From Gammaproteobacteria bacterium (GTDB lineage: Bacteria; Pseudomonadota; Gammaproteobacteria; JAJDYQ01), in the NCBI GenBank assembly GCA_028289815.1, contig JAPYNQ010000023.1:1-32819 (forward strand): a stretch of 32,819 bases of DNA. The letters run 5' to 3'. Below the pieces are notes generated by a model. It was not told the origin of the DNA. It searched no databases and saw only the letters and a program-made list of their open reading frames with translations. The translations under genes were made by a program, and so were the position numbers. Position 1 is the stretch's first letter; each line of letters starts with the position of its first letter. This document shows positions 2-31,834 of this stretch, in pieces.

Positions 2-3000
2 GATGAAGTGACGCTGACGCACGAGGTTACCGGCGGTATGGCGGATGGCTATGCGGGCTTGAGCGGCCGTGTTGAGGTGAGCGTGACGGATGATGATCGT
101 GAGGCGGGTGTGCGCATTGACCCAACGGTACTGAGGCTTGCGGAAGCCGAGACTGCCAGCTACACGGTGGTATTGGAGGCGCAGCCGTCCGACGATGTGG
201 TTATTGGGATTACCCCGTCGACAGGTGGCGGTGACTTTGGTGGTGTCGCTCCGGCGACGGCAAACCCGGTCAGCCTGACGTTCACGACGCGTAATTGGAG
301 TCAGCCCCAGGTCGTGACGGTATCGGGTGAGGATAATGACGTTGACAACAGTGACCGCTCAATGGCGTTCACCCACGCTATCACGACCGGTGACGGCGGC
401 GCCTACGGCACTGACACTGTGGGGATTGATCTGGTTGAGGTTACGGTTACTGACGACGATGAAACAGGTCTGATATTCTCGACGGATGAGGTCTCACTCG
501 TTGAAGGTGACAGTGCCAGTTACACGGTGAGCCTGATGTCGAGGCCGGTGTCAGCGGTAACCGTGACAATTTTTGGAGATGAACTGGCACTGATGATGAG
601 TGATACCAGTCTGACGTTCACGACGGACAACTGGGGTGACGCGCAGACGGTGGCATTGTCGGCAATAGCTGATTCTGATGAGTTTGATCATGTAGTGCGA
701 CTGTTGCATTTGGCCTCGGGCGGCGGCTACGACGGTGTGCAGGAGCGACTGAGGGCTTTTATTACGGATAATGGCCGCGAAGCGGGTGTGGTTGTCAGTA
801 AAGGCGATGTGAGGAGGCTTACCAGCTTGAGGGTTACTGAAGGTGCCGATGATAACTATGTCGTGTTACTGGATGCCCCGCCGGCGGATACGGAGACAGT
901 GACGGTCACAGTCACGGCTGACGATGCCGGTGTGGCGATGGTGAGCCCGGCCCGATTGATGTTTACCTCCATGAACTGGAGCGATCCCCAGGAACTGACC
1001 GTGACGGGTACGAATGATGACATTGACAATGATGCCGAGCGCACGACGAGTATAGCCCATGTTGTCAGTTCATCTGTGGGCGACACAGGAAGCTACGGCA
1101 GTGTGGGAACCCGGACAGTGAGTGTGACGGTGACCGATGATAATGACGAGGCCGGTCTGCGGCTGATGCGGGACGACGGTGAACCGGTGGCGGTGCTATC
1201 GGTGCTTGAAGGTGGTCCGAGTCTGACCTACACGGTAGCACTGACGAGCGAGCCGACGGCAGCAGTTACCTTGCAGTTCAGCGGTAATGACGGTACGGAC
1301 CTGAGGTTGAGCACGACGACTCTGGTATTCACGACGGATAACTGGAGAACACCGCAGGCACTGATGGTGAGTGCGGTGGCCGATGCCGATGAGCAGCCTG
1401 ATGGGGTGAGACTGAGCTATGCGGTCTCGACGACGGCGACGGACGATGGTTACCGTGATGTGGCGGGAGAATTGCTGGTCAGCATTCTCGACAGCGACAA
1501 CAGGGAGGCGGGCGTAACGGTCAGCCGGACGAATATCCGGGTCGCCCCTGAGGGAGGCACAGACCGTTATACCGTGGTGCTGCAAGCGTCGCCGGAGACG
1601 GCTGTGGTGGTGACGGTGACCTCGCAGATGCCAGGGATAGCGCAGGTAAACAAGGCAGGCGAAGCACCCGCTTCATCAGGGTTCCTGACGTTTGAGCCGA
1701 TGACTTTCACGTCGGGGAACTGGTACAGACCGCAGGCGATAACGGTGACGGGCGTGGCTGAAGGTAATACGGTCATCCGCCATGCGATAGCCGCCGGTGG
1801 TGATGGTGCTGGTTATACAGCCGATCTGGCGATTGCCGATGTGCGGGTGAGCGTGACGGACGATGAATCGGTCACCACTTCGCCGCTTGAGGAAATGGCA
1901 GAGATGCAAGCAGAGATGGCCCAACAAACCTGGGTGCCGGGCTTTGGTGCGGTGGCAGTAGAGCATATGGTCAGTGGCCTGGATTACCGCTTCTCTGTGA
2001 CCGGTAATCCGGGCCTGTCGGGTAGCGGTGTGAGCGGCTTGTTCGGCGATCAGATCGGAGGCACCGGCTTGACCGGGGTCGGCCCGCATCAGGGTCTGGG
2101 TGTTGACGGCTTCGGCAAGGGCGGTTCCGGTCATGCAGACGGCTTTGGTGCCGGTTCGGTGGATCGGCTGTTTAATGTGTCGAGGTCGCTGTCGCTGACG
2201 GATGCGCTGGGCGATATGCTGCGCGGTAGCCGCTTCCTGTTCGGTGATGAAAAGACCGGCGTCTCGGTCTGGGGTCAGGCCTCGTACTCTGGCTACGAAG
2301 ATGAGCAGAACGATGTTGCAGTGGATGGTGATATCACCACCGCGATGCTGGGTGTGGATAGCGATACGGGTAACACGCTGATTGGTCTGGCACTGGCATA
2401 CAGCGATGGAGACGGCGATTGGGATGGCTTGCTTGAAGGGACTACTACCCATGCTGAGGGCAAGCTGTCGAGCACATTGTTGTCGCTGCTGCCGTATATG
2501 CGCCACACGGTGAGTGATCGCTTGCAGATATGGGGAGCGGCGAGCTATGGTCAGGGTGAGCTGAAACAGACCAACAGCCAGTCCCGTGACTTGAAACATG
2601 ATCTGGAGCAGGCTTCGCTGACAGCCGGTGTACGTGGTACCTTGTTGGAGCGGTCGGCAGAAGAAGGCGGCCTGACGCTGACGCTGATCTCGGATGCTAC
2701 CCTGTCGCGTATTGAAACAGACGATGACGGTACGGTATCCGGCATGACAGCAGATACCCAACGGTTCCGCATGGGACTGGAGTGGTCCTGGCAGCTTCCG
2801 CAGGCAGACGGCGGTCGCCTGGTACCGGAACTGGAGTTGGGTGTGCGCTATGACGGTGGCGATACCAGTGAGGGCTTCGGTATAGAACTCGGTGGCGGTG
2901 TCAGTTGGGAGTTGCCGGCGAGCGGTCTGACATGGGATCTGCGTGGTCGTTATCTGCTCAATCATGAGGTCTCGGAGCGGCGTGAATGGGGTATATCAGG

Positions 3001-3400
3001 TTCGTTGCGCTACGATCTGCAACCGGGTTCGTCTTATGGCCCGTCCTTAAGCCTGCGGCAGGAATATGGCAATGTTTCGACGGCCAGTGGCTTAAGCCAG
3101 ATGCTGTCGAGTTCGTTGTCGGATTCGTTGAAGCAGGAGGATGTGTCTGAGGCAGGCGAGGTGTCAAGTAGCTGGAGCCTGGAAGGTGAATGGGGCTTTG
3201 CCCTGGAAGACGGTGCCACGGGTATCCCGTATGCAGGTCTGTCTTCTTCGGGCGCTGAGCGTGACCTGACCCTGGGCTGGCGTCTGTTGTCGGCACCGGG
3301 TAAGTGGAATACCGAACTGGACATCAAGGCGATTCGTCGCAATGATGATCAGGGCGAAGTCAACCACGGTATCGGTGCCGAATTTAAGTTGAACTGGTAG
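2..3400 (+). CDS. Autotransporter with Calx-beta-like repeats (5' partial)
   Basis: The reading frame is already open at the window edge, so the N-terminus and signal peptide are missing. Five full repeats of about 105-124 residues start near nt 98, 461, 776, 1148 and 1502. Each carries an EGxxxxYTV strand, an FTxxNWxxPQ block and a closing VTDDD-type acidic motif, as in Calx-beta/cadherin-like extracellular repeats. A Gly-rich linker (about nt 1870-2230) leads to a C-terminal beta-barrel of roughly 380 residues (about nt 2260-3400) ending in Trp, as expected for a BamA-assembled autotransporter domain. Likely role: a type V secreted surface adhesin or stalk with the barrel in the outer membrane. 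The repeats are acidic and could bind calcium. No passenger enzyme domain is visible in the part seen. The ligand and total length are unknown. Confidence 0.85.
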   Translation, partial: DEVTLTHEVTGGMADGYAGLSGRVEVSVTDDDREAGVRIDPTVLRLAEAETASYTVVLEAQPSDDVVIGITPSTGGGDFGGVAPATANPVSLTFTTRNWSQPQVVTVSGEDNDVDNSDRSMAFTHAITTGDGGAYGTDTVGIDLVEVTVTDDDETGLIFSTDEVSLVEGDSASYTVSLMSRPVSAVTVTIFGDELALMMSDTSLTFTTDNWGDAQTVALSAIADSDEFDHVVRLLHLASGGGYDGVQERLRAFITDNGREAGVVVSKGDVRRLTSLRVTEGADDNYVVLLDAPPADTETVTVTVTADDAGVAMVSPARLMFTSMNWSDPQELTVTGTNDDIDNDAERTTSIAHVVSSSVGDTGSYGSVGTRTVSVTVTDDNDEAGLRLMRDDGEPVAVLSVLEGGPSLTYTVALTSEPTAAVTLQFSGNDGTDLRLSTTTLVFTTDNWRTPQALMVSAVADADEQPDGVRLSYAVSTTATDDGYRDVAGELLVSILDSDNREAGVTVSRTNIRVAPEGGTDRYTVVLQASPETAVVVTVTSQMPGIAQVNKAGEAPASSGFLTFEPMTFTSGNWYRPQAITVTGVAEGNTVIRHAIAAGGDGAGYTADLAIADVRVSVTDDESVTTSPLEEMAEMQAEMAQQTWVPGFGAVAVEHMVSGLDYRFSVTGNPGLSGSGVSGLFGDQIGGTGLTGVGPHQGLGVDGFGKGGSGHADGFGAGSVDRLFNVSRSLSLTDALGDMLRGSRFLFGDEKTGVSVWGQASYSGYEDEQNDVAVDGDITTAMLGVDSDTGNTLIGLALAYSDGDGDWDGLLEGTTTHAEGKLSSTLLSLLPYMRHTVSDRLQIWGAASYGQGELKQTNSQSRDLKHDLEQASLTAGVRGTLLERSAEEGGLTLTLISDATLSRIETDDDGTVSGMTADTQRFRMGLEWSWQLPQADGGRLVPELELGVRYDGGDTSEGFGIELGGGVSWELPASGLTWDLRGRYLLNHEVSERREWGISGSLRYDLQPGSSYGPSLSLRQEYGNVSTASGLSQMLSSSLSDSLKQEDVSEAGEVSSSWSLEGEWGFALEDGATGIPYAGLSSSGAERDLTLGWRLLSAPGKWNTELDIKAIRRNDDQGEVNHGIGAEFKLNW

Positions 3401-21161: not shown

Positions 21162-21641
21162 ATGAATGTCAAAGCACTGTCAAGCTGTCTCCTAATGATG
21201 CTGATGCTGTTTTACGGGCAGATATTGCTGGCTGAAAGTTATGGCAAGCAGAAGGTTGTTTATCATATTAACTACGATGACCCCAAAAAGCAGTCCGGGG
21301 CGTTACGTAACATACAAAATCACATCAATGCTGTAGGGGCGGAGAATCTTGACCTGAAAGTTGTATTACATGGCAATGGCTTGGCCATGTTGCTGGAACC
21401 GGATGCCTTGGGCAAACTTAAAAAATTCAGGCAAGCGAATGCGAATGACAAGATGACCGCCCGGATTGACGGATTAAAAAATCAGGGTGTCACTTTTAAT
21501 GTTTGTGCGAATACCGTTCGTGGTCGCAAGGTTGATCTGACAAACGATCTGTACGATGTAAACCAGTCGGATATCGTGCCGAGCGGAGTGGCTGAGGTGG
21601 CTCACCTGCAGGCAAAAGGCTATACTTATATCAAGCCGTAA
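21162..21641 (+). CDS. Exported DsrE-family protein
   Basis: This 159-residue protein has a hydrophobic N-terminal signal (about 1-24, ending LLAES) and one DsrE/DsrF-like alpha/beta domain: KVVYHINYDDPKK, ALRNIQNHINAVG, DLKVVLHGNGLAMLL and FNVCANTVRGR with a conserved Cys at residue 115. DsrE-type proteins carry or sense sulfane sulfur, usually on this Cys; periplasmic members are widespread in sulfur-metabolising bacteria. It is monocistronic with an excellent AAGGAGA ribosome site and its own promoter region. It converges on wrbA. The exact role is not known. Confidence 0.88.
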   Translation: MNVKALSSCLLMMLMLFYGQILLAESYGKQKVVYHINYDDPKKQSGALRNIQNHINAVGAENLDLKVVLHGNGLAMLLEPDALGKLKKFRQANANDKMTARIDGLKNQGVTFNVCANTVRGRKVDLTNDLYDVNQSDIVPSGVAEVAHLQAKGYTYIKP

Positions 21642-21698: not shown

Positions 21699-22316
<618 letters not shown>

Positions 22317-22349: not shown

Positions 22350-23105
22350 ATGAATCGGCAATTCAGAATATTCAAGGCTATTATTCTTATGTTCGCGCTT
22401 CAGAATAATGGCATGGCAGATACCGAGCTGGAGTTTTCCAGTGGAAACCGGCAAGTGATGCTGATCGAGCTTTTCACTTCCCAAGGCTGTAGTAGCTGTC
22501 CGCCTGCTGAAAAATGGCTGCATAAGTTTGTTGACAGCCGTGAGCTTTGGAGAGAAGTCGTCCCCGTTGCCTATCATGTTGATTATTGGGATTACCTCGG
22601 ATGGCGGGATATCTTCGCCTCCAATGACCATTCGAACCGGCAACGCCAGTATCGTCTTTTGGGTAATATCAGCTCAGTTTATACCCCGGGCTTTGTGGTC
22701 AACGGCCAAGAATGGAAAGGTTGGTTCCGCCGTAAGCCGTTGCCTGCAGTCAGAGAGTCTGCGGGCGATCTGGAAGCTCGTTTACGCGACAGGTATCTGA
22801 GTGTGACCTACGAGGCAGATGTCCATGATTCGCTGATTCTGAATGTTGCCATGCTTGGTTTTGGGATTCAGACGGCGGTAGCAGCCGGCGAGAACCGTGG
22901 TCGTAACCTGCCCTATGAATTTGTTGTTCTGAGTCACCACAAACACTATTCAGATACGGCGAGTTGGGAAGTTGAGCTACCTGAAATCAATCTGGAGTCC
23001 GGTAACAGAGTGGGGCTTGCGATATGGATCAGTCAGGGGGCAAGCCTGATCCCGATACAGGCCACCGGAACCTGGTTGCCGGATACTTACTTGGCGGGAC
23101 AGTAA
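22350..23105 (+). CDS. DUF1223 thioredoxin-like exported protein
   Basis: This 251-residue protein begins with a short basic and hydrophobic stretch that reads as a signal peptide (cut near AMAD-like NNGMADTE, residue 22), followed by the DUF1223 signature VMLIELFTSQGCSSCPPAEK with a CxxC pair at Cys47 and Cys50. VAYHVDYWDYLGWRD and YTPGFVVNGQEW (cis-Pro region) follow. The family is a thioredoxin-fold group of unknown function, usually periplasmic. The ATG at 22350 has a GGAG six bases ahead; the ATG at 22335 sits almost on top of its own AGGGGAG and is less likely. It leads the plus-strand run of thiol-redox genes. Confidence 0.88.
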   Translation: MNRQFRIFKAIILMFALQNNGMADTELEFSSGNRQVMLIELFTSQGCSSCPPAEKWLHKFVDSRELWREVVPVAYHVDYWDYLGWRDIFASNDHSNRQRQYRLLGNISSVYTPGFVVNGQEWKGWFRRKPLPAVRESAGDLEARLRDRYLSVTYEADVHDSLILNVAMLGFGIQTAVAAGENRGRNLPYEFVVLSHHKHYSDTASWEVELPEINLESGNRVGLAIWISQGASLIPIQATGTWLPDTYLAGQ

Positions 23106-23117
23106 ATACGCTATACT
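23091..23117 (+). promoter_or_regulatory. Possible sigma-70 promoter before the tlpA-like gene
   Basis: TATACT at 23112-23117 is a good -10 element, with TTGGCG at 23091-23096 as a partial -35 and a 15-bp spacer, slightly short. It straddles the end of the DUF1223 gene and lies 30 bp before the tlpA-like ATG, so the six-gene block from tlpA to the ATPase may have its own start. Confidence 0.35.
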
Positions 23118-23146
23118 CGTGCCGGTGATGTTTTGAGGTAGCCACC

Positions 23147-23680
23147 ATGAAGAAAATGTATTGCACGATAAAAGCTGCCCTTATCTTTTGTTGTATCGCC
23201 AGTTCGGTTTATGCCGCGGATTCAAATGGGCCAACTGTCAACTTCAAGTTCAATGGGCTTGATGGAAATATCCACCAGCTAGCAGACTATAAGGGGAAAT
23301 GGGTTATCGTCAATTTCTGGGCGACTTGGTGTGGTCCCTGTATTCGGGAAATACCCGAGCTGAATCAGTTCTATCATAAGTATCGTGACCGGGGCATAGA
23401 GATTCTTGGGGTCAACTATGAGGAGCTGACACCGACACAGACTAAGCTGGCATTGAATGAATTCAAGATTGATTATGGGGTGTTACATATCGGTGAAGAA
23501 TCGGAGATGTCTGAAGCTATGATTCTGAAGGGACTGCCAACAACTTTTGTGATTTCTCCCGATGCCCGCCTTGTAAAGACGTGGGCCGGGCCGGTAACGG
23601 AAATCGAACTGCAGGATTACCTGTTACCCAAGTTGCAATCGGGTAGCAGGCTGACTGCCGGATCAATGGAGCGAACATGA
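23147..23680 (+). CDS. TlpA-like exported thioredoxin
   Basis: This 177-residue protein has a signal peptide (about 1-23, VYAAD) and a TlpA/ResA-type thioredoxin domain: NFWATWCGPCIREIPELNQF with redox Cys62 and Cys65, ILGVNYEE, and the cis-Pro loop KGLPTTFVI. Proteins of this type reduce periplasmic disulfides, classically in cytochrome maturation or in keeping partner thiols reduced. No ccm gene is near. Its last codons overlap the next gene by four bases (ATGA at 23677-23680), so the two CxxC proteins are translationally coupled and probably work together. Confidence 0.92.
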   Translation: MKKMYCTIKAALIFCCIASSVYAADSNGPTVNFKFNGLDGNIHQLADYKGKWVIVNFWATWCGPCIREIPELNQFYHKYRDRGIEILGVNYEELTPTQTKLALNEFKIDYGVLHIGEESEMSEAMILKGLPTTFVISPDARLVKTWAGPVTEIELQDYLLPKLQSGSRLTAGSMERT

Positions 23681-24219
23681 AGTTTCTGCCTTACCTGACC
23701 GGCATTCTGTTATATGTATTGCTATCCACTGCATATGCACAGGTACCACGTGACCCATACGAATATTTTTTCAATGAGTCTTTTGGGGACTACTCAGAAG
23801 AGCTCGAAAACGCCAGGGATCAGGGTAAAAAAGGTGTTATGGTATTTTTTGAAATGGACGAATGCCCATTTTGCCATCGTATGAAAAACACCATCATGAA
23901 CCAGCCCGAGATTCAGGAATATTATCGGGAAAGGTTTTTGTTGTTCTCCCATGATATTGAGGGTGATATTGATATTGTCGATTTTGAGGGCAACGAGACC
24001 ACGCAGAAAGAGTATGCGGTGAAAGTACATCGTGTTCGGGCAACTCCGGTGATCGCTTTTTTTGATCTGGAAGGAAACCGGATAGCGCGCTACATCGGAG
24101 CAACGAAAAGTGCACGTGAGTTTAAGTGGCTGGCCGATTATGTTGCCGATGGTCATTACAGGGATACCAGTTTCACGCGCTACAAACGGGAAAAGAAAAA
24201 GGAGCTGGAAGCAAGTTGA
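23677..24219 (+). CDS. Exported thioredoxin-fold protein with CPFC site
   Basis: This 180-residue protein has a signal peptide (about 1-21, TAYAQ) and a thioredoxin_7/SoxW-like domain: GVMVFFEMDECPFCHRMKNTI with Cys63 and Cys66, then VHRVRATPVIAFFDLEGN carrying the cis-Pro. A basic helix (RYKREKKKELE) ends the protein. The CPFC dipeptide is like that of disulfide-handling proteins close to DsbD partners. The start overlaps the tlpA-like stop (ATGA). The TolC-like gene begins 41 bp after its stop. Confidence 0.88.
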   Translation: MKFLPYLTGILLYVLLSTAYAQVPRDPYEYFFNESFGDYSEELENARDQGKKGVMVFFEMDECPFCHRMKNTIMNQPEIQEYYRERFLLFSHDIEGDIDIVDFEGNETTQKEYAVKVHRVRATPVIAFFDLEGNRIARYIGATKSAREFKWLADYVADGHYRDTSFTRYKREKKKELEAS

Positions 24220-24260
24220 CAGAACTCGCCAGGGTCTGGCGCGTACTCGGGGGGTATTAC

Positions 24261-25604
24261 ATGTATCTTTGCAGAAGCTGCATATTACCTGTAGCGATGT
24301 ATGCAGTGTTAACTTCCGGGCCCTTGAGTGCGGCCGATAAGCAGCCCATTCCCGACCCTTTAAGCCTGCAACAGGCCATAGCACTCATTGATGAGCAGCA
24401 CCCTGCGTTGCTACAAGACAAGCTGTTGCTGGATCGGGCGAAAAGCACGGCGGATGAAGCCGGAGAGCACAACAGTCTGAGCGTCGATCTGGTTGGCAGG
24501 ATGCGTTGGTATCAGGCGGGAAGTTCGCGATTTGATGTCGGGGACCATGATGATCACAGTCTCTGGCTGGTCTTGAGCAAGCCGTTATATGATGGCGGCT
24601 ACAGCGGTGCGCTGGCCGAGTCAGCCGAGCAGGATCGGAAAGCGGCCGAACTGCGGATTGCAGATAACCGCAGCCTATATACCATCATGGTGATGCAGAA
24701 GTTTTTTGACATCATACTCGCTGACATTGAGGCTGCCCGTGACAATGAAAGTATGGCCATCGCGTTTGTCACTTTTGATCGTGGGCAGGACAACCATGAG
24801 TTTGGCAAAATATCCGATGTAGACTTGCTGGAGTTGGAAAACACCTTTCAGCAGGCTCGCCTCCGTGTGGTTGAGAGTGAGGGCCGGGCGCGCAGTACGC
24901 GGCAGGCGTTGGCATTGGTCCTCAATCGACCCGGACAGCAGCCCTCGGTGTTATCTCGGCCCGATCTTGATGTCAAGAATCGCAAGCTGTTGGCATTCGA
25001 TACACTGATTGAAAAAGCCTTGCAGAATAACCGCCGGCTGCTTGCCCTTGATTCCGAGTTGTTGTCGGCAAAGGCGGAAGTGGAGGCGGCGTACTCACCC
25101 TATCGTCCTGATGTTTCTGCCGTGATTGAACGTAGTGCATACTCCAGAGATTTGGGGAGTTATGACAAATGGCGCGCAGCATTGGAAATGTCTTGGCCGC
25201 TTTATAGCGGCGGTCAGAAAGATGTTGCTGCCAACAGGGCATATCTTAAGGTAAATGAAACTCTTTATCGGCGTCATCAGTTAGAGCTGGACATGCGCCA
25301 GAAGCTCTGGGAGCTTGCCGAAGAGTTTGCCCTGCTGGAGGCTCGGCGGCAGGCAAATGATGTGTTTTCCGACTACCGGGAGCTGTATATGGACCGTTCT
25401 AGGGCATTATACGAACTGGAAGTAAAGACAGACCTTGGAGATGCGATGACGCAAATATCTGAATCGCAATTACGCGATGCCAGACAAACCTTCCAAATGG
25501 CGCTTTTGTTAGCCCAGCTAAATCATCTGCTTGGCGAGGATGACGTTATGAACTGGGAGGCGGTTACCGAAAAGGTAAAGAATCAGCCACAGGTTGGCGG
25601 ATAA
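24261..25604 (+). CDS. TolC-family outer-membrane channel protein
   Basis: This 447-residue protein has a signal peptide (MYLCRSCILPVAMYAVLTSG...SAAD) and two OEP/TolC repeats of long coiled helices: DPLSLQQAIALIDEQHPALL and FGKISDVDLLELENTFQQARL in the first, then LIEKALQNNRRLLALDSELLSAKAEVEAAYSPYRPDV, WPLYSGGQKDVAANRAYLKV and a late helix pair in the second. Trimers form an outer-membrane barrel with a periplasmic tunnel. The ATG at 24261 with a GGGGG ribosome site gives a proper signal peptide; longer frames overlap the previous gene. The HlyD-like adaptor gene follows 10 bp later. No inner-membrane pump is present. Confidence 0.88.
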   Translation: MYLCRSCILPVAMYAVLTSGPLSAADKQPIPDPLSLQQAIALIDEQHPALLQDKLLLDRAKSTADEAGEHNSLSVDLVGRMRWYQAGSSRFDVGDHDDHSLWLVLSKPLYDGGYSGALAESAEQDRKAAELRIADNRSLYTIMVMQKFFDIILADIEAARDNESMAIAFVTFDRGQDNHEFGKISDVDLLELENTFQQARLRVVESEGRARSTRQALALVLNRPGQQPSVLSRPDLDVKNRKLLAFDTLIEKALQNNRRLLALDSELLSAKAEVEAAYSPYRPDVSAVIERSAYSRDLGSYDKWRAALEMSWPLYSGGQKDVAANRAYLKVNETLYRRHQLELDMRQKLWELAEEFALLEARRQANDVFSDYRELYMDRSRALYELEVKTDLGDAMTQISESQLRDARQTFQMALLLAQLNHLLGEDDVMNWEAVTEKVKNQPQVGG

Positions 25605-25614
25605 AGGAGACAAT

Positions 25615-26367
25615 ATGTGTAATAAGGTGGTCACGTCTGTGCTGTTAATGGTTTTAATGGGCGCGGCATCAGTGGTACAAGCCGCCGGTGAAGCGGATGG
25701 TGTGCTGCAGTGGGAGCAAAAAACAGCATTATCCCTACCGGTTTCAGGAGTCATCAAGGCAATAAACGTCACTCCTGGACAAAGAGTTGCAAAAGGTGAT
25801 GTGCTTTTGTCGCTTGACAGGCGGTCCTTTCAGTATCGTTTGGAATCCGCGCAAGCCCGCATGGAAGAGTATGCTCCCGGTCGAGATGAAGCCCATGATG
25901 AGCTGCAACGTGCCGAGGAGCTATATGAGCGAACGGTTTTGTCGCAGGTAGAGCTGGATCAGGCGCAAAATGATTTTGCTGCGAAAGATGCCCGTTATCT
26001 GGCAGCTAGTGCCGATGTTGGTCAGGCAAAGCTGGATCTTGAGCACACTGAACTCAAGGCGCCTTTTGAGCTCATCGTTCTGAAAAATCATGTCGTTGTC
26101 GGGCAAACGGTTGTCAATCGTTTACAGGCTACCCCTCTGATTACCGTGGCAAACGGACAGCTGGTTGCTGTCATGCGATTATCCCCGGAGAAAATCATGG
26201 GTCTCAATATCAGTGGTGACGCAAATGTCACTACTGCAGGCCAGACGTACCCCGGGAAAGTGAGGGTTATCGACTACGATCCGGGGGCCGGTTTAGCAGA
26301 AGTCACCATTGCGATTGACGCCCGCCCGCCCGCAACCGTTGGCCAGCTCGCGCGTATTACATGGTAA
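25615..26367 (+). CDS. Short HlyD/RND-type periplasmic adaptor
   Basis: This 250-residue protein has a signal peptide (about 1-25, VVQAAGEA), an N-terminal biotinyl-lipoyl half (LPVSGVIKAINVTPGQRVAKGDVLLSLD), a helical hairpin of moderate length (about 60-140), the second lipoyl half (TELKAPFELIVLKNHVVVGQ) and a beta-barrel domain. The membrane-proximal domain usual in full-length RND adaptors (350-400 aa) is much reduced. An excellent AAAGGAGA ribosome site lies 10 bp after the TolC stop. Its end overlaps the acyP start by seven bases. Confidence 0.88.
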   Translation: MCNKVVTSVLLMVLMGAASVVQAAGEADGVLQWEQKTALSLPVSGVIKAINVTPGQRVAKGDVLLSLDRRSFQYRLESAQARMEEYAPGRDEAHDELQRAEELYERTVLSQVELDQAQNDFAAKDARYLAASADVGQAKLDLEHTELKAPFELIVLKNHVVVGQTVVNRLQATPLITVANGQLVAVMRLSPEKIMGLNISGDANVTTAGQTYPGKVRVIDYDPGAGLAEVTIAIDARPPATVGQLARITW

Positions 26368-26636
26368 TTATTGCAAAGCGATGCGTCATTTTCGGTCATG
26401 TGCAGGGAGTCTCTTACCGAGCCTCGACTTGCCAGAAGGCCCGCGAAATCGGTATTAGTGGCTGGGTCAGAAATCTGTCCGACGGTACGGTCGAGTGTCT
26501 GGTGCAAGGCAGTAAAGACCAAGTGACAGAAATGACACACTGGCTCCGGCAGGGGCCGGTACCGTCTAATGTAACCGATGTTCAATGTTATGATGAAGAG
26601 CCCGCTGATTTAGACAGCTTCAGAGTAACTCGATAA
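26361..26636 (+). CDS. acyP: Acylphosphatase
   Basis: This 91-residue cytosolic enzyme hydrolyses carboxyl-phosphate bonds such as acetyl or carbamoyl phosphate. The active-site loop GHVQGVSYR holds Arg20, which binds the phosphate, and Asn38 in WVRNLSDGTVE positions the water. Length and motif order are standard. Its ATG lies inside the adaptor gene (seven-base overlap) and the ATPase gene starts one base after its stop, so it is embedded in the run. Why a metabolic enzyme sits between an adaptor and a secretion ATPase is unclear. Confidence 0.94.
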   Translation: MVIIAKRCVIFGHVQGVSYRASTCQKAREIGISGWVRNLSDGTVECLVQGSKDQVTEMTHWLRQGPVPSNVTDVQCYDEEPADLDSFRVTR

Positions 26637-26637
26637 T

Positions 26638-28419
26638 ATGGCTAGGTTTGGACTGACGCTGGAAAACAGGGAAGACCGGCAACTGGAACTTCCTGATCTC
26701 TTGGCTGCAATGCAGGCTGACGGACTCATCTCGCGGGACCAACAACAGCAGCTTAACAGCAGCGTTCGTCCCAAAGACCTAGAATCAACCCATCCGGTTA
26801 CCATTATAGCCGCCCAGGCTTGGCAAAATGCCCGGGATGGCAGCCTTCTGCATGAGGAGGCCATTTCGCGCTGGTTGGCGCAGACTTTGGGCCTGGAGTA
26901 TCTGCGTATTGATCCGTTGAAAACTGATGTGCGGTTAGTGACTTCGCTGGCCTCATACGCCTATGTATCGAAGCGCTCTATTTTACCGGTTGCCGTTGAC
27001 GGGAGTCTCGCTACATTTGCGACATCACAGCCGCTGCAACAGACATGGCAATCCGACCTTTCAGGCATGCTCGGAAAAGAAATACGCGTTGTTATTACAT
27101 CCCCTTCCGATCTTGATAAGTATTCACTGGAATTTTACGCCTTGGCGAAATCGGTCAACAAGGCAGGCAAGGATGCGGCTGTTAATGTTCCCGGTGTCAA
27201 TAATCTTGAACAGCTGGTACAACTCGGAAAATCCGGCAATCTGGATGCCGATGACCAACATATTGTGCATGTCGTGGATTGGTTAATGCAGTTTGCCTTT
27301 GACCAGCGTGCCAGCGATATTCATCTTGAGCCGCGACGAGACATGAGCTACGTGAGGTTCCGTATTGATGGCATGTTACACATGGTTTATGAGGTACCGA
27401 CAGCCATCATGACGGCGATTATCAGCCGAATTAAATCCTTGGGAGGAATGGATATTATTGATAGAAGGCATCCACAGGATGGGCGGGTAAAAACCCGCAC
27501 ACCAAAAGGTAATGAAGTTGAGCTTCGGTTATCTACTTTGCCGACGGCATTTGGCGAAAAAATGGTGATGAGGATTTTTGATCCTGATGTGTTGGTGAAG
27601 AATTTTTCCGAACTGGGTCTATCCGATGCCAACAAGAAAATATGGAGTGAAATGATAGAGCAGCCCAATGGCCTTATTCTTGTGACAGGGCCAACAGGTT
27701 CAGGCAAGACCACGACGCTTTATTCGACGCTCAAGCATATCGCCAAGCCTGAGGTCAATGTCTGCACTATAGAAGACCCGATTGAACTGCTTGAAACACA
27801 GTTTAATCAAATGCAGGTAAATTCGGCTATAGACCTGAATTTTTCAGATGGCGTCAAGGCATTGTTACGACAAGACCCTGACATCATCATGATTGGTGAG
27901 ATACGCGACCTTGAAACCGCCGAAATGGCGATACAGTCATCACTGACCGGCCATCTTGTACTCAGCACGCTGCATACCAATGACGCCGTATCGACCGTTT
28001 CCAGACTCATGGAAATCGGGCTGCCGGACTACCTGTTACGTGCGACCCTGCTGGGAGTGGTTGCGCAGAGACTATTGAGAACGCTTTGTCCGCACTGTTT
28101 GAGAGCCGGCTCAATAGATGAATTGAGCTGGCGACAGCTTATCCGGCCGATGAAAATGAAGTTACCGGATAAAATTAATCGGGCGCAAGGATGTCTGGAA
28201 TGTCGTAATACCGGCTATCTTGGCCGAGTTGGTATTTACGAGATGCTAAGAGCCACTCCAAAGGTCAAAGATATGATACGGGTCGCTGTGGAGCGCCAGG
28301 CACTGTTTGAAACTGCTGTCCGGGAAGGCATGATTCCGTTAAACGTGAGCGGTGCTATGAAAGTTGCAGCAGGAATCACCACGCCGGAAGAAGTGCTCAG
28401 AGTGGTGAGCATAGCCTGA
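26638..28419 (+). CDS. GspE/PilB-family secretion ATPase
   Basis: This 593-residue AAA+-like hexameric ATPase belongs to the type II secretion/type IV pilus family. An N-terminal T2SSE-like domain (about 60-170: LAQTLGLEYLRIDPL, YVSKRSILPVAVDG) leads to the catalytic core: RASDIHLEPRRD, Walker A GPTGSGKTT (351-359), the Asp box, Walker B DPDIIMIGEIRD, the His box TLHTNDA, and a four-Cys zinc module (CPHC, CLEC). The zinc module is typical of GspE and PilB and absent in PilT-type retraction ATPases. No PilC/GspF platform, pilin or secretin gene is adjacent. It begins one base after acyP and ends the run. It may power an assembly encoded elsewhere. Confidence 0.93.
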   Translation: MARFGLTLENREDRQLELPDLLAAMQADGLISRDQQQQLNSSVRPKDLESTHPVTIIAAQAWQNARDGSLLHEEAISRWLAQTLGLEYLRIDPLKTDVRLVTSLASYAYVSKRSILPVAVDGSLATFATSQPLQQTWQSDLSGMLGKEIRVVITSPSDLDKYSLEFYALAKSVNKAGKDAAVNVPGVNNLEQLVQLGKSGNLDADDQHIVHVVDWLMQFAFDQRASDIHLEPRRDMSYVRFRIDGMLHMVYEVPTAIMTAIISRIKSLGGMDIIDRRHPQDGRVKTRTPKGNEVELRLSTLPTAFGEKMVMRIFDPDVLVKNFSELGLSDANKKIWSEMIEQPNGLILVTGPTGSGKTTTLYSTLKHIAKPEVNVCTIEDPIELLETQFNQMQVNSAIDLNFSDGVKALLRQDPDIIMIGEIRDLETAEMAIQSSLTGHLVLSTLHTNDAVSTVSRLMEIGLPDYLLRATLLGVVAQRLLRTLCPHCLRAGSIDELSWRQLIRPMKMKLPDKINRAQGCLECRNTGYLGRVGIYEMLRATPKVKDMIRVAVERQALFETAVREGMIPLNVSGAMKVAAGITTPEEVLRVVSIA

Positions 28420-28750: not shown

Positions 28751-30466
28751 TCAAGCCTCGATCCTTGCCCGCAAAAATTCCGAAATTTCCTCCATAGGTA
28801 CAATCTCCGTTTTATCGATATTCCGTCTATCCTTATATTCAAGCGTACCGCTGTCCAGTAAGCGGTCGCTGATAATGATTCGATACGGAATACCTATGAG
28901 TTCCATATCGGCGAAGATGACGCCGGGCCTCGCCTTGCGATCATCATACAAAACGTCATAGCCGGCAGACTGTAACTCCTCGTATAGCCGGTCTGCTGCC
29001 TCCCTCAGTCTGACCGATTTATACATATTGACAGGGGTAAGGGCGACCTGAAAAGGAGCGATACCGGCGGGCCAGATGATGCCTCGGTCATCGTGATTCT
29101 GCTCAATGGCTGCGGCAACAACTCTTGATATGCCAATGCCATAACAGCCCATTGTCATGGTTATGACCTTACCGTTTTCATCCAATACCTCCGCCTTCAT
29201 TGCAGTGGCATACTTGTTGCCCAATTGAAAGATATGACCCACCTCAATGCCTCGGGCGACAGACAATGTGCCATGACCGTCCGGGCTGGGGTCTCCATCC
29301 ATGACACATCGAATATCCACCACCTCCGGTTCCGGCAGGTCACGCCCCCAGTTGACGCCGGTGAAATGATAATCGTCTTCATTCGCGCCGCAGACGAAGT
29401 CGGCCATCGCCGCGGCGCCAGGGTCTGCCAATACTCGGACTCTCAACCCCACCGGTCCGACAGAGCCGGCGGCGCAACCTGCTGCCTGCCGAATAGCCGC
29501 CTCGGATGCCATAGTCAGAGGGGCCGCGACCGCCCCTGTTTTGGTTGCCTTAATTGCATTGAGAGTGTGGTCGCCGCGCAGCACCAGAGCAACTACGGAA
29601 TTTTCTTCAGCACCGTTGACCAGCAATGTTTTGAGGCACCTTGAAGCGTCAATATTCAGATGTTGACTCACCTCTCCAATACTGTGCTTCTCGGGTGTGG
29701 CAACCTTCTGCATTTTTCTGCTTGCCTCTGCCCGCACCAGTCCCGTTTCCGTGACCCCAACCATCTCGACATTGGCGGCATAATCCGACTCACTGGAAAA
29801 CGCGATGGCATCCTCACCGTATTCGGCCAGTACATGAAACTCATGAGACAGATTGCCGCCGATATTGCCGCTATCCGCAGCGACCGCGCAAAACTCCAGC
29901 CCGGTGCGCTCGAATATGCGGACATAGGTATCAAACATATTTTGATAGGTTTTGCCGAGGCAGTCCTCGGATACATGGAAAGAATAGGCATCTTTCATCA
30001 GAAATTCCCGTGCCCGCATGATGCCGAAGCGGGGGCGGATCTCATCTCGGAATTTTGTCTGTATCTGGTAATAATTCACCGGCAACTGCTTGTAACTGCG
30101 AATCTCGCGCCGGGCCAGATCGGTGATGACTTCCTCATGGGTGGGACCAAAACAAAACTCCCGTTCATGTCGATCAGCGAACCGCAGCAACTCTGCTCCA
30201 TACTGCTCCCAACGCCCGGATTCCTGCCACAATTCGGCTGGCTGCACAGCCGGCATCAACAGCTCAATGGCACCGGCGCTGTTCATCTCCTCCCGGACGA
30301 TGTTCTCCACCTTACGCAAGGTCCTCAATCCCAGTGGCATCCAGGCATAAATACCGGTGGCAATACGCCGGATCATACCGGCACGCACCATTAACCGATG
30401 GCTGACAACCTCCGCATCTGCGGGAGCTTCCTTCAAGGTATGGATGGAGAACTGACTCGTACGCAC
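28751..30466 (-). CDS. proS: Prolyl-tRNA synthetase
   Basis: This 571-residue class II synthetase charges tRNA-Pro. It is the long bacterial type with the INS editing domain (about residues 240-385, with [16 protein letters not shown]) that clears Ala-tRNA-Pro, inserted between motif 2 ([38 protein letters not shown]) and motif 3 ([17 protein letters not shown]). Length equals E. coli ProS (572 aa). The start is a GTG at 30466, because MRTSQF aligns with the conserved N-terminus and an AGGAAG ribosome site lies just ahead. Transcribed alone. Confidence 0.96.
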
Positions 30467-30715: not shown

Positions 30716-31834
30716 TCAGGAGTCCCGGGATTGATCCTGATAAACAACCCCCCGTACCAGAGAAATCAACTCATGCCGCCGATGTGTGCCGGTTTTTGCA
30801 TAGATACGCTTCAAATGAGAGCGTACCGTTTCATAAGAACTGAAAGTGGATTCGGCGAACTCTTTCAGGTCAAGCCCGGCAATCAGTGTACCCATGAGCT
30901 TGGTTTCGGCACGCGTCAGATGATAATGTCGGCTGAATATGGCGGCCATCTCGCTGTCCTTAAACCCCGGAGCCCGGATTAGCAGCAATGCCGCATAGCC
31001 GGTCTGGTAACGTGGCTGCCCGGTTATCGGCATCAGACTCAGCAACCGGCGGGCACTGGCCCTGCCATCGACCGAACCTGCATAATGACAGGGACTTCCC
31101 GTTTGTGGCGAGTTGTATACCCGAGCGCTGCCGATAATGCACCCTGCAGCCAGTCCTGCGCCGCCTTATCCGGCAGTATCAGCTGCCCGTCATGTTTATC
31201 CACGCGCAGGGCAGGAAACATCGTTTCGGCGCTGCCGTTGGCATACATGACGCGCGCCCCTAGATATTGAAGAATATCACGCCGTCAGCGAGAAATTCGG
31301 CAAACTGCTCGTTGACCTGTGCAGCCATATTGCTCAGCCTGTAGCGGAAGGCAAGGCACGTTGCAGGTGCGGCAGCAATTGCTGCAAGGTGCGCATATTT
31401 TCAGCTAGGCATTTCTCTGCCACCGTGAAAACCAATGGCACTCATCTGCCCATCACGATCAACAATTTTGGCCATCAGGCCGCAGGCAATATCATTTTGC
31501 CGAGAAAATCATACAGCGCATAGTGCTTCATGGCCTTGACCGACAAAAACCGACGATCATGAAACACCTCACCGGCAGGCAGTGCCGGAAGCATCATGTC
31601 AAAGCGCGGGTTATCGCTGTGATAGTGAGTAAAATACTCCTCCCAGAGCTCGGCGCTGCCGCCTGTAAGGTTGCGATGTATGATCTGTCCGTCCTTGAAC
31701 AAATGCAGGTTGGCCACCCCGGCAGCGAAAAGGTCGCTGAGCGATTCCTGCAACGGCTGCCACTCCGCCGGCTCCAAGGCGGCGGTATAGATACGCTCGA
31801 TCAGCTCCTCCAGCGGTGTCGTAGTCTTTTTCAT
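30716..31834 (-). pseudogene. LuxR-family transcription regulator, frameshifted
   Basis: The parts form one gene of about 370 codons read right to left. N-terminal part: LEELIERIYTAALEPAEW to KMILPAA (31834-31475, then TGA). It continues in another frame with CGLMAKIVDRDGQM...GFHGGREMPS, shifts again at ENMRTLQQLLPHLQRAL, again at YRLSNMAAQVNEQFAEFLADGVIFFN, and again at MYANGSAETMFPALRVD...AGPVPAGC. It ends with an intact LuxR-type DNA-binding domain (LTRAETKLMGTLIAGLDLKEFAES, YETVRSHLKRIYAKTGTHRRHELI) stopping at 30716. At least four frame changes are needed, so no full-length protein can be made. The C-terminal HTH alone could be made as a 109-residue fragment. Divergent from the lipoprotein relic. 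Confidence 0.88.

Follow-up and report, generated by a model that had tools for sequence, protein, structure and literature searches.

A predicted TfpB-type pilus motor gene adjoins a conserved, apparently undescribed channel-adaptor-thioredoxin operon in a gammaproteobacterial genome

Analysis of a 32,819-nucleotide stretch of gammaproteobacterial DNA (the window) suggested that a run of seven genes at positions 22350-28419 is very probably made of two functionally separate units that abut: a gene for a TfpB-type motor of type IV pili, and an operon for exported thioredoxins, a TolC-family channel and a short periplasmic adaptor. The window is contig C16 of the metagenome-assembled genome G000 (2.18 Mb, 96.9% complete, 89 contigs). 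The original prediction had treated the run as one machine, which either exports a thiol-containing product with components encoded elsewhere or uses a GspE-type ATPase in place of the usual motor. The single machine did not hold, since the channel-adaptor set usually occurs without the ATPase; what looked like a hybrid comes apart into a pilus motor of known type and an operon that is conserved but apparently undescribed. The explanation that we favour as a whole, and consider probable, combines the two separate units with a conduit linked to thiol redox and with a common wrbA...proS neighbourhood.

The last gene of the run (26638..28419, + strand; Pfam T2SSE and MshEN) codes for the ATPase. 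Its product scored 832.7 bits with the NCBIfam model for TfpB, 485.1 bits with that for PilB and 479.3 bits with that for GspE, TfpB being the best family by about 350 bits. For the PilB protein of the same genome the PilB model gave 817.7 bits and the TfpB model 400. TfpB-model scores elsewhere were 907-921 bits for relatives from other families with the same gene order (loci L002, L025, L122 and L136), 958 for Pseudomonas and 830 for Stenotrophomonas. A maximum-likelihood tree grouped all TfpB sequences in a single clade (support 99/98) and separated them from the PilB-like proteins, the latter forming a small outgroup of five sequences from the same genus, one of them very long. The motifs of the ATPase are intact, with the Walker A motif at residue 351, DPDIIMIGEIRD at 413, the His box at 442 and a C-terminal tetracysteine.

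No platform protein, pseudopilins or secretin were found beside the ATPase at the locus. The earlier statement that the stretch has no pump and no PilC/GspF was correct for the window, and the genome search proposed for a platform protein or pump located the platform: a single PilC is encoded on contig C55, adjoining PilB. Three PilT-family (PilT/PilU) ATPases are encoded on contig C49 and a single secretin on contig C3. The tfpB gene is therefore apart from pilC in a genome where pilB and pilC are both present. Among the sampled gammaproteobacterial genomes described below, TfpB occurred in 90 of 369, mostly in other neighbourhoods.

Normal piliation of Acinetobacter baylyi depends on TfpB, the second type IV pilus extension motor of that species (Ellison et al. 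2021, PMC8213720), so that a close homologue of the window ATPase works in a pilus outside the present setting, which argues against the role first proposed for it. TfpB was named partly for its lack of synteny with pilC, and PilB is also present in 15 of the 16 species carrying it (PMC8213720). The window ATPase shares with the A. baylyi protein its best-scoring family, a full-length alignment, a gene unlinked to pilC and a genome with PilB and PilC; unlike it, the window protein scores slightly under the family cut-off and is encoded downstream of an acylphosphatase and a TolC module. We predict that the supposed GspE is a TfpB-type extension motor of type IV pili, its extension function being assigned by homology, and that it would act on the single PilC platform alongside PilB. 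The annotation deserves the name of a pilus motor, not of a secretion ATPase.

We searched 369 genomes of the class (one even gammaproteobacterial sample) with one profile for the CPFC thioredoxin and one for the short adaptor. The adaptor gene was located downstream of the thioredoxin gene, on the same strand, in 76 of these genomes, representing 43 families; the counts hinge on the E-value cut-offs and on the class sample, gaps in metagenome-assembled genomes can hide genes, and the gene calls in the comparison loci are mechanical. In all but two of the 76 genomes the spacing was 1.2-1.6 kb, which leaves room for one channel gene. The usual order, seen in 20 independent loci without adjacent TfpB, was TlpA, CPFC thioredoxin, OEP channel, short adaptor and acylphosphatase (AcyP): AcyP followed the adaptor in 16/20, TlpA was upstream in 12/20, WrbA was upstream in 9/20 and ProS downstream in 9/20. 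An overlap of a few bases between the AcyP and adaptor genes, like that of the window, was frequent in other loci.

Positions 23147-26636 of the window are a separate conserved operon, entirely on the + strand, in which genes for a pair of exported proteins with thioredoxin fold precede those for a TolC-family channel, a minimal periplasmic adaptor and an acylphosphatase. The first gene codes for a TlpA/ResA-like exported thioredoxin with a WCGPC motif (23147..23680; Pfam AhpC-TSA/Redoxin). The three core genes follow: the CPFC thioredoxin, which is DsbD-gamma/DsbH-like (23677..24219; Pfam Thioredoxin_2), the TolC-family outer-membrane channel (24261..25604; Pfam OEP, 3e-29, and a family alignment) and the short periplasmic adaptor of 250 residues (25615..26367; Pfam Biotin_lipoyl_2/HlyD_3). 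The acylphosphatase (26361..26636; Pfam, 4e-25) is the last gene of the usual module. No published description of the module was found among the open-access papers searched (subscription papers lay outside this scope, and the result is no proof of novelty); the module is apparently undescribed.

A second setting was found in loci L170, L173 and L187, where FxsA is encoded upstream, and CutA and DsbD downstream, of the thioredoxin-OEP-adaptor triple (the genes of L173 were checked with Pfam). Their presence in two genomic settings shows that the three core genes travel together. Both settings flank the module with periplasmic thiol-redox genes. Two parts of the thiol-export proposal were borne out by these results: the thiol-redox genes belong with the channel and adaptor (43 families, two settings), and the platform of the ATPase is encoded elsewhere.

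The fxsA / cutA-dsbD setting also ties the triple to metal tolerance genes besides those of thiol redox. In 20 genomes (G049, G054, G062, G122 and 16 others) a strong homologue of the CPFC thioredoxin occurred without an adaptor at channel spacing; partial modules, split contigs or a stand-alone role of the thioredoxin are options for these. A conserved lipoprotein-like protein of about 220 residues is encoded at 4202-4876 of L002, with counterparts in L003, L025, L122, L136, L149, L161 and L189, upstream of AcyP/TfpB or of the module; it has no Pfam match and, by eye, a LysM-like C-terminal stretch.

The cysteine pair of the CPFC thioredoxin was invariant in 22 of 22 sequences. The AlphaFold2 model of this protein (predicted local distance difference test, pLDDT, 95.3) had as closest folds in the PDB a Helicobacter pylori thioredoxin-fold protein, the DsbD C-terminal domain and DsbH. 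DsbD is present in the window's own genome and adjoins the module in the three loci of the second setting. The module resembles the DsbD-gamma, DsbH and TlpA reductases in its exported thioredoxin fold with CxxC and in lying beside dsbD in several genomes, but the CPFC protein is separate, small, exported and encoded consistently upstream of a channel and an adaptor.

The AlphaFold2 model of the adaptor (pLDDT 91.9) begins with an N-terminal helix that by eye looks like a signal peptide; a lipoyl domain, a two-helix hairpin (residues 70-105 and 111-143) and a beta-barrel follow, and there the protein ends. Its fold matches in the PDB were AcrA, MacA and MexA, and it scored 112.7 with the RND_mfp model, above the cut-off of 94.9. 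No membrane-proximal domain was found: the model stops after the beta-barrel, and 25 aligned relatives stop at the same place. Such a domain is present in all RND-associated adaptors and missing where the transporter has no periplasmic domains (PMC8277102, section 7.3). Judged by eye, the adaptor apparently also lacks a membrane anchor. Residues R99, L103 and S110 match the spacing R-x3-L-x6-S, known for TolC docking in AcrA, and are kept in 19, 24 and 21 of the 25 aligned adaptors, respectively.

The module therefore has in common with AcrAB-TolC, MacAB-TolC and EmrAB-TolC a TolC-family channel and an adaptor with an RLS-type hairpin tip, a lipoyl domain and a beta-barrel. It differs from tripartite efflux and type I secretion systems in its coupling to exported thioredoxins, in the adaptor, which is without the membrane-proximal domain and apparently without an anchor, and in that none of the loci inspected has an inner-membrane transporter linked to it. 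The Lit transporter of Legionella (PMC11559062) was rejected as a description of this module, being MacAB-like with its own permease and ATPase.

A TolC channel with its adaptor is taught as requiring an energised transporter. Across 28 loci, a simple Kyte-Doolittle count, which could miss or invent membrane segments, found no recurrent inner-membrane pump at 4 kb or less from the module, only scattered multi-pass proteins; DsbD was the sole recurrent multi-pass neighbour. In the window's own genome the search for a pump returned four RND pumps, and since each has its own adaptor, an RND pump lacking one was rejected as the partner. A FUSC/AaeB partner, suggested by the adaptor's similarity to AaeA, was likewise rejected: FUSC is absent from this genome and from 74 of the 76 module genomes, occurring in 2/76. 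One RND pump gene (G000:C63:8322-11348) has an in-frame TAG and is a pseudogene or an assembly error.

The channel and the short adaptor might nevertheless belong to an ordinary tripartite pump whose RND, ABC or MFS transporter is encoded elsewhere, the thioredoxins being mere neighbours. This explanation agrees with the RND_mfp score and the AcrA/MacA-like fold of the adaptor, and with a genome that has four RND pumps and few other OEP genes (one of full length on contig C74 and two fragments); outer-membrane channels are frequently shared. We regard it as rather unlikely, because the adaptor is without the domain of all RND-associated adaptors and has a signal peptide in place of the anchor of MFS and ABC adaptors, the candidate pumps fail as just described, no pump is linked in the 28 loci, and the thioredoxin linkage extends across 43 families. 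We infer that the module does without an inner-membrane pump of its own or else recruits one in trans.

As for the thiol-redox-linked conduit, its mechanism, which is possible though short of probable, could be as follows. With the RLS tip of its hairpin the adaptor would dock on the channel, and an outer-membrane conduit would result. DsbD would reduce the CPFC and TlpA-like proteins, the DsbD-gamma-like thioredoxin would keep a periplasmic substrate or partner (a thiol species) reduced, and the conduit would release the reduced species, or a thiol or metal-thiol adduct. The broadest form of the proposal, that about one fifth of gammaproteobacterial genomes carry a TolC-type conduit needing no inner-membrane pump, with DsbD-fed reductases controlling thiol, persulfide or metal-thiol release, is in our view distinctly unlikely. 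With the order kept in 43 families, a pump gene never linked and an adaptor without the domain by which RND or MacB transporters are contacted, the question of a pump-less TolC conduit is directly testable, and the module also raises that of a role for periplasmic thiol redox in such a conduit.

The relation between TfpB and the module was analyzed in the same sample. TfpB was present in 24 of the 76 module genomes, where 18.5 were expected, and absent from 52 (Fisher p=0.13, not significant); 66 of the 90 TfpB genomes had no TolC module. In the 24 genomes with both, the two were adjacent in 8 (families f1, f93, f137 and f154) and apart in 16. In L142 and L161, which have TfpB but no channel genes, the arrangement was WrbA- ... 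AcyP+ TfpB+ ... ProS-; in L175 and L189, which have the module but no TfpB, it was WrbA- ... HlyD+ AcyP+ ... ProS-. In several lineages TfpB comes after AcyP in this region, whether or not the channel genes are there. WrbA on the - strand recurred in many module and TfpB loci, and ProS on the - strand in several TfpB loci. In the window, the conserved left edge of this neighbourhood is the gene for the quinone oxidoreductase WrbA (21699..22286, - strand) and the right edge that for the prolyl-tRNA synthetase ProS (28751..30466, - strand), both above their NCBIfam cut-offs. As both types of unit occupy one conserved wrbA...proS neighbourhood, descent from it is the simplest account of the adjacency, which would then have been inherited.

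An adjacency selected through the pilus, for instance through thiol redox of pilins or DNA-uptake factors, is quite improbable. It would fit the position of TfpB directly after the module in the 8 genomes of 4 families, as well as in L002 and L025, and that of TlpA directly before TfpB in L144, L148 and L151, but the co-occurrence is not significant, most genomes with both keep them apart, and the common neighbourhood accounts for the adjacency by descent.

The same counts bear on the earlier suggestion of an undescribed envelope machine in which the ATPase takes the place of the usual motor and powers the channel and adaptor. The two genes flanking the 1-bp gap are physically adjacent, as that suggestion would have it; yet the ATPase is of TfpB type, PilC and pilus genes are encoded elsewhere in the genome, and most module genomes lack TfpB, as most TfpB genomes lack the module. 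We consider such a machine very improbable.

The gene-order comparison that had been proposed showed that the order extends beyond this genome. The two further genomes of the genus (L118 and L119) have the order TolC-HlyD-AcyP-ATPase as well, with TfpB 90% and 76% identical to the window protein, and TolC-HlyD adjoins the ATPase in several other lineages. Because of this recurrence, a chance run or an assembly fault of one metagenome-assembled genome, which a window from an 89-contig assembly might raise, deserves almost no credence; the core order, moreover, is found in 43 families.

Several points weigh against the interpretation of two separate units with a thiol-redox-linked conduit. The ATPase score lies 2% under the curated TfpB cut-off of 850 bits (NCBIfam NF053534), as does that of Stenotrophomonas TfpB (830), this cut-off being an automatic naming threshold, an annotation rule rather than a biological trait. 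The adjacency of TfpB and module in 4 families of the class sample may reflect a weak functional link. The four RND loci, set beside the one other full-length OEP gene, mean that pumps may share the module channel. No conserved cysteine was found in the channel or adaptor alignments, which leaves the thioredoxins no conserved disulfides to act on there, and such disulfides were rejected as their substrate. Finally, the conduit mechanism, its substrate and the redox direction are all things that we infer.

All seven genes of the run were found on the + strand, at the coordinates first proposed, by gene calls and Pfam matches. The recomputed junctions agreed with the overlaps and short gaps described earlier: 41 bp, an overlap of 4 bp (ATGA), 41 bp, 10 bp, an overlap of 7 bp and 1 bp, from the DUF1223 gene to the ATPase gene. 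A promoter and terminator scan gave site counts at or below the shuffled expectation and so speaks neither for nor against an internal promoter or terminator; the seven genes could reasonably be a single transcription unit. The first of them codes for an exported DUF1223 protein with a CSSC motif (22350..23105; Pfam PF06764, 9e-44). This gene is outside the widely conserved module: it occupies this slot, beside TfpB, only in the genus of the window (L118/L119).

PADLOC gave no meaningful defence match. An exported DsrE-family protein is encoded just upstream of WrbA, at 21162-21641 (+ strand), and also in genome G001 (L118). A LuxR-type regulator at 30716-31834 (- strand) looks like a pseudogene: its N-terminal part (31475-31834) and its helix-turn-helix part (30716-31045) are in one frame, and the intervening stretch contains stops and frame shifts. 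Near the window edge, a large repetitive open reading frame of 1130 codons (8-3400, + strand) has a C-terminal part that by eye resembles an autotransporter barrel.

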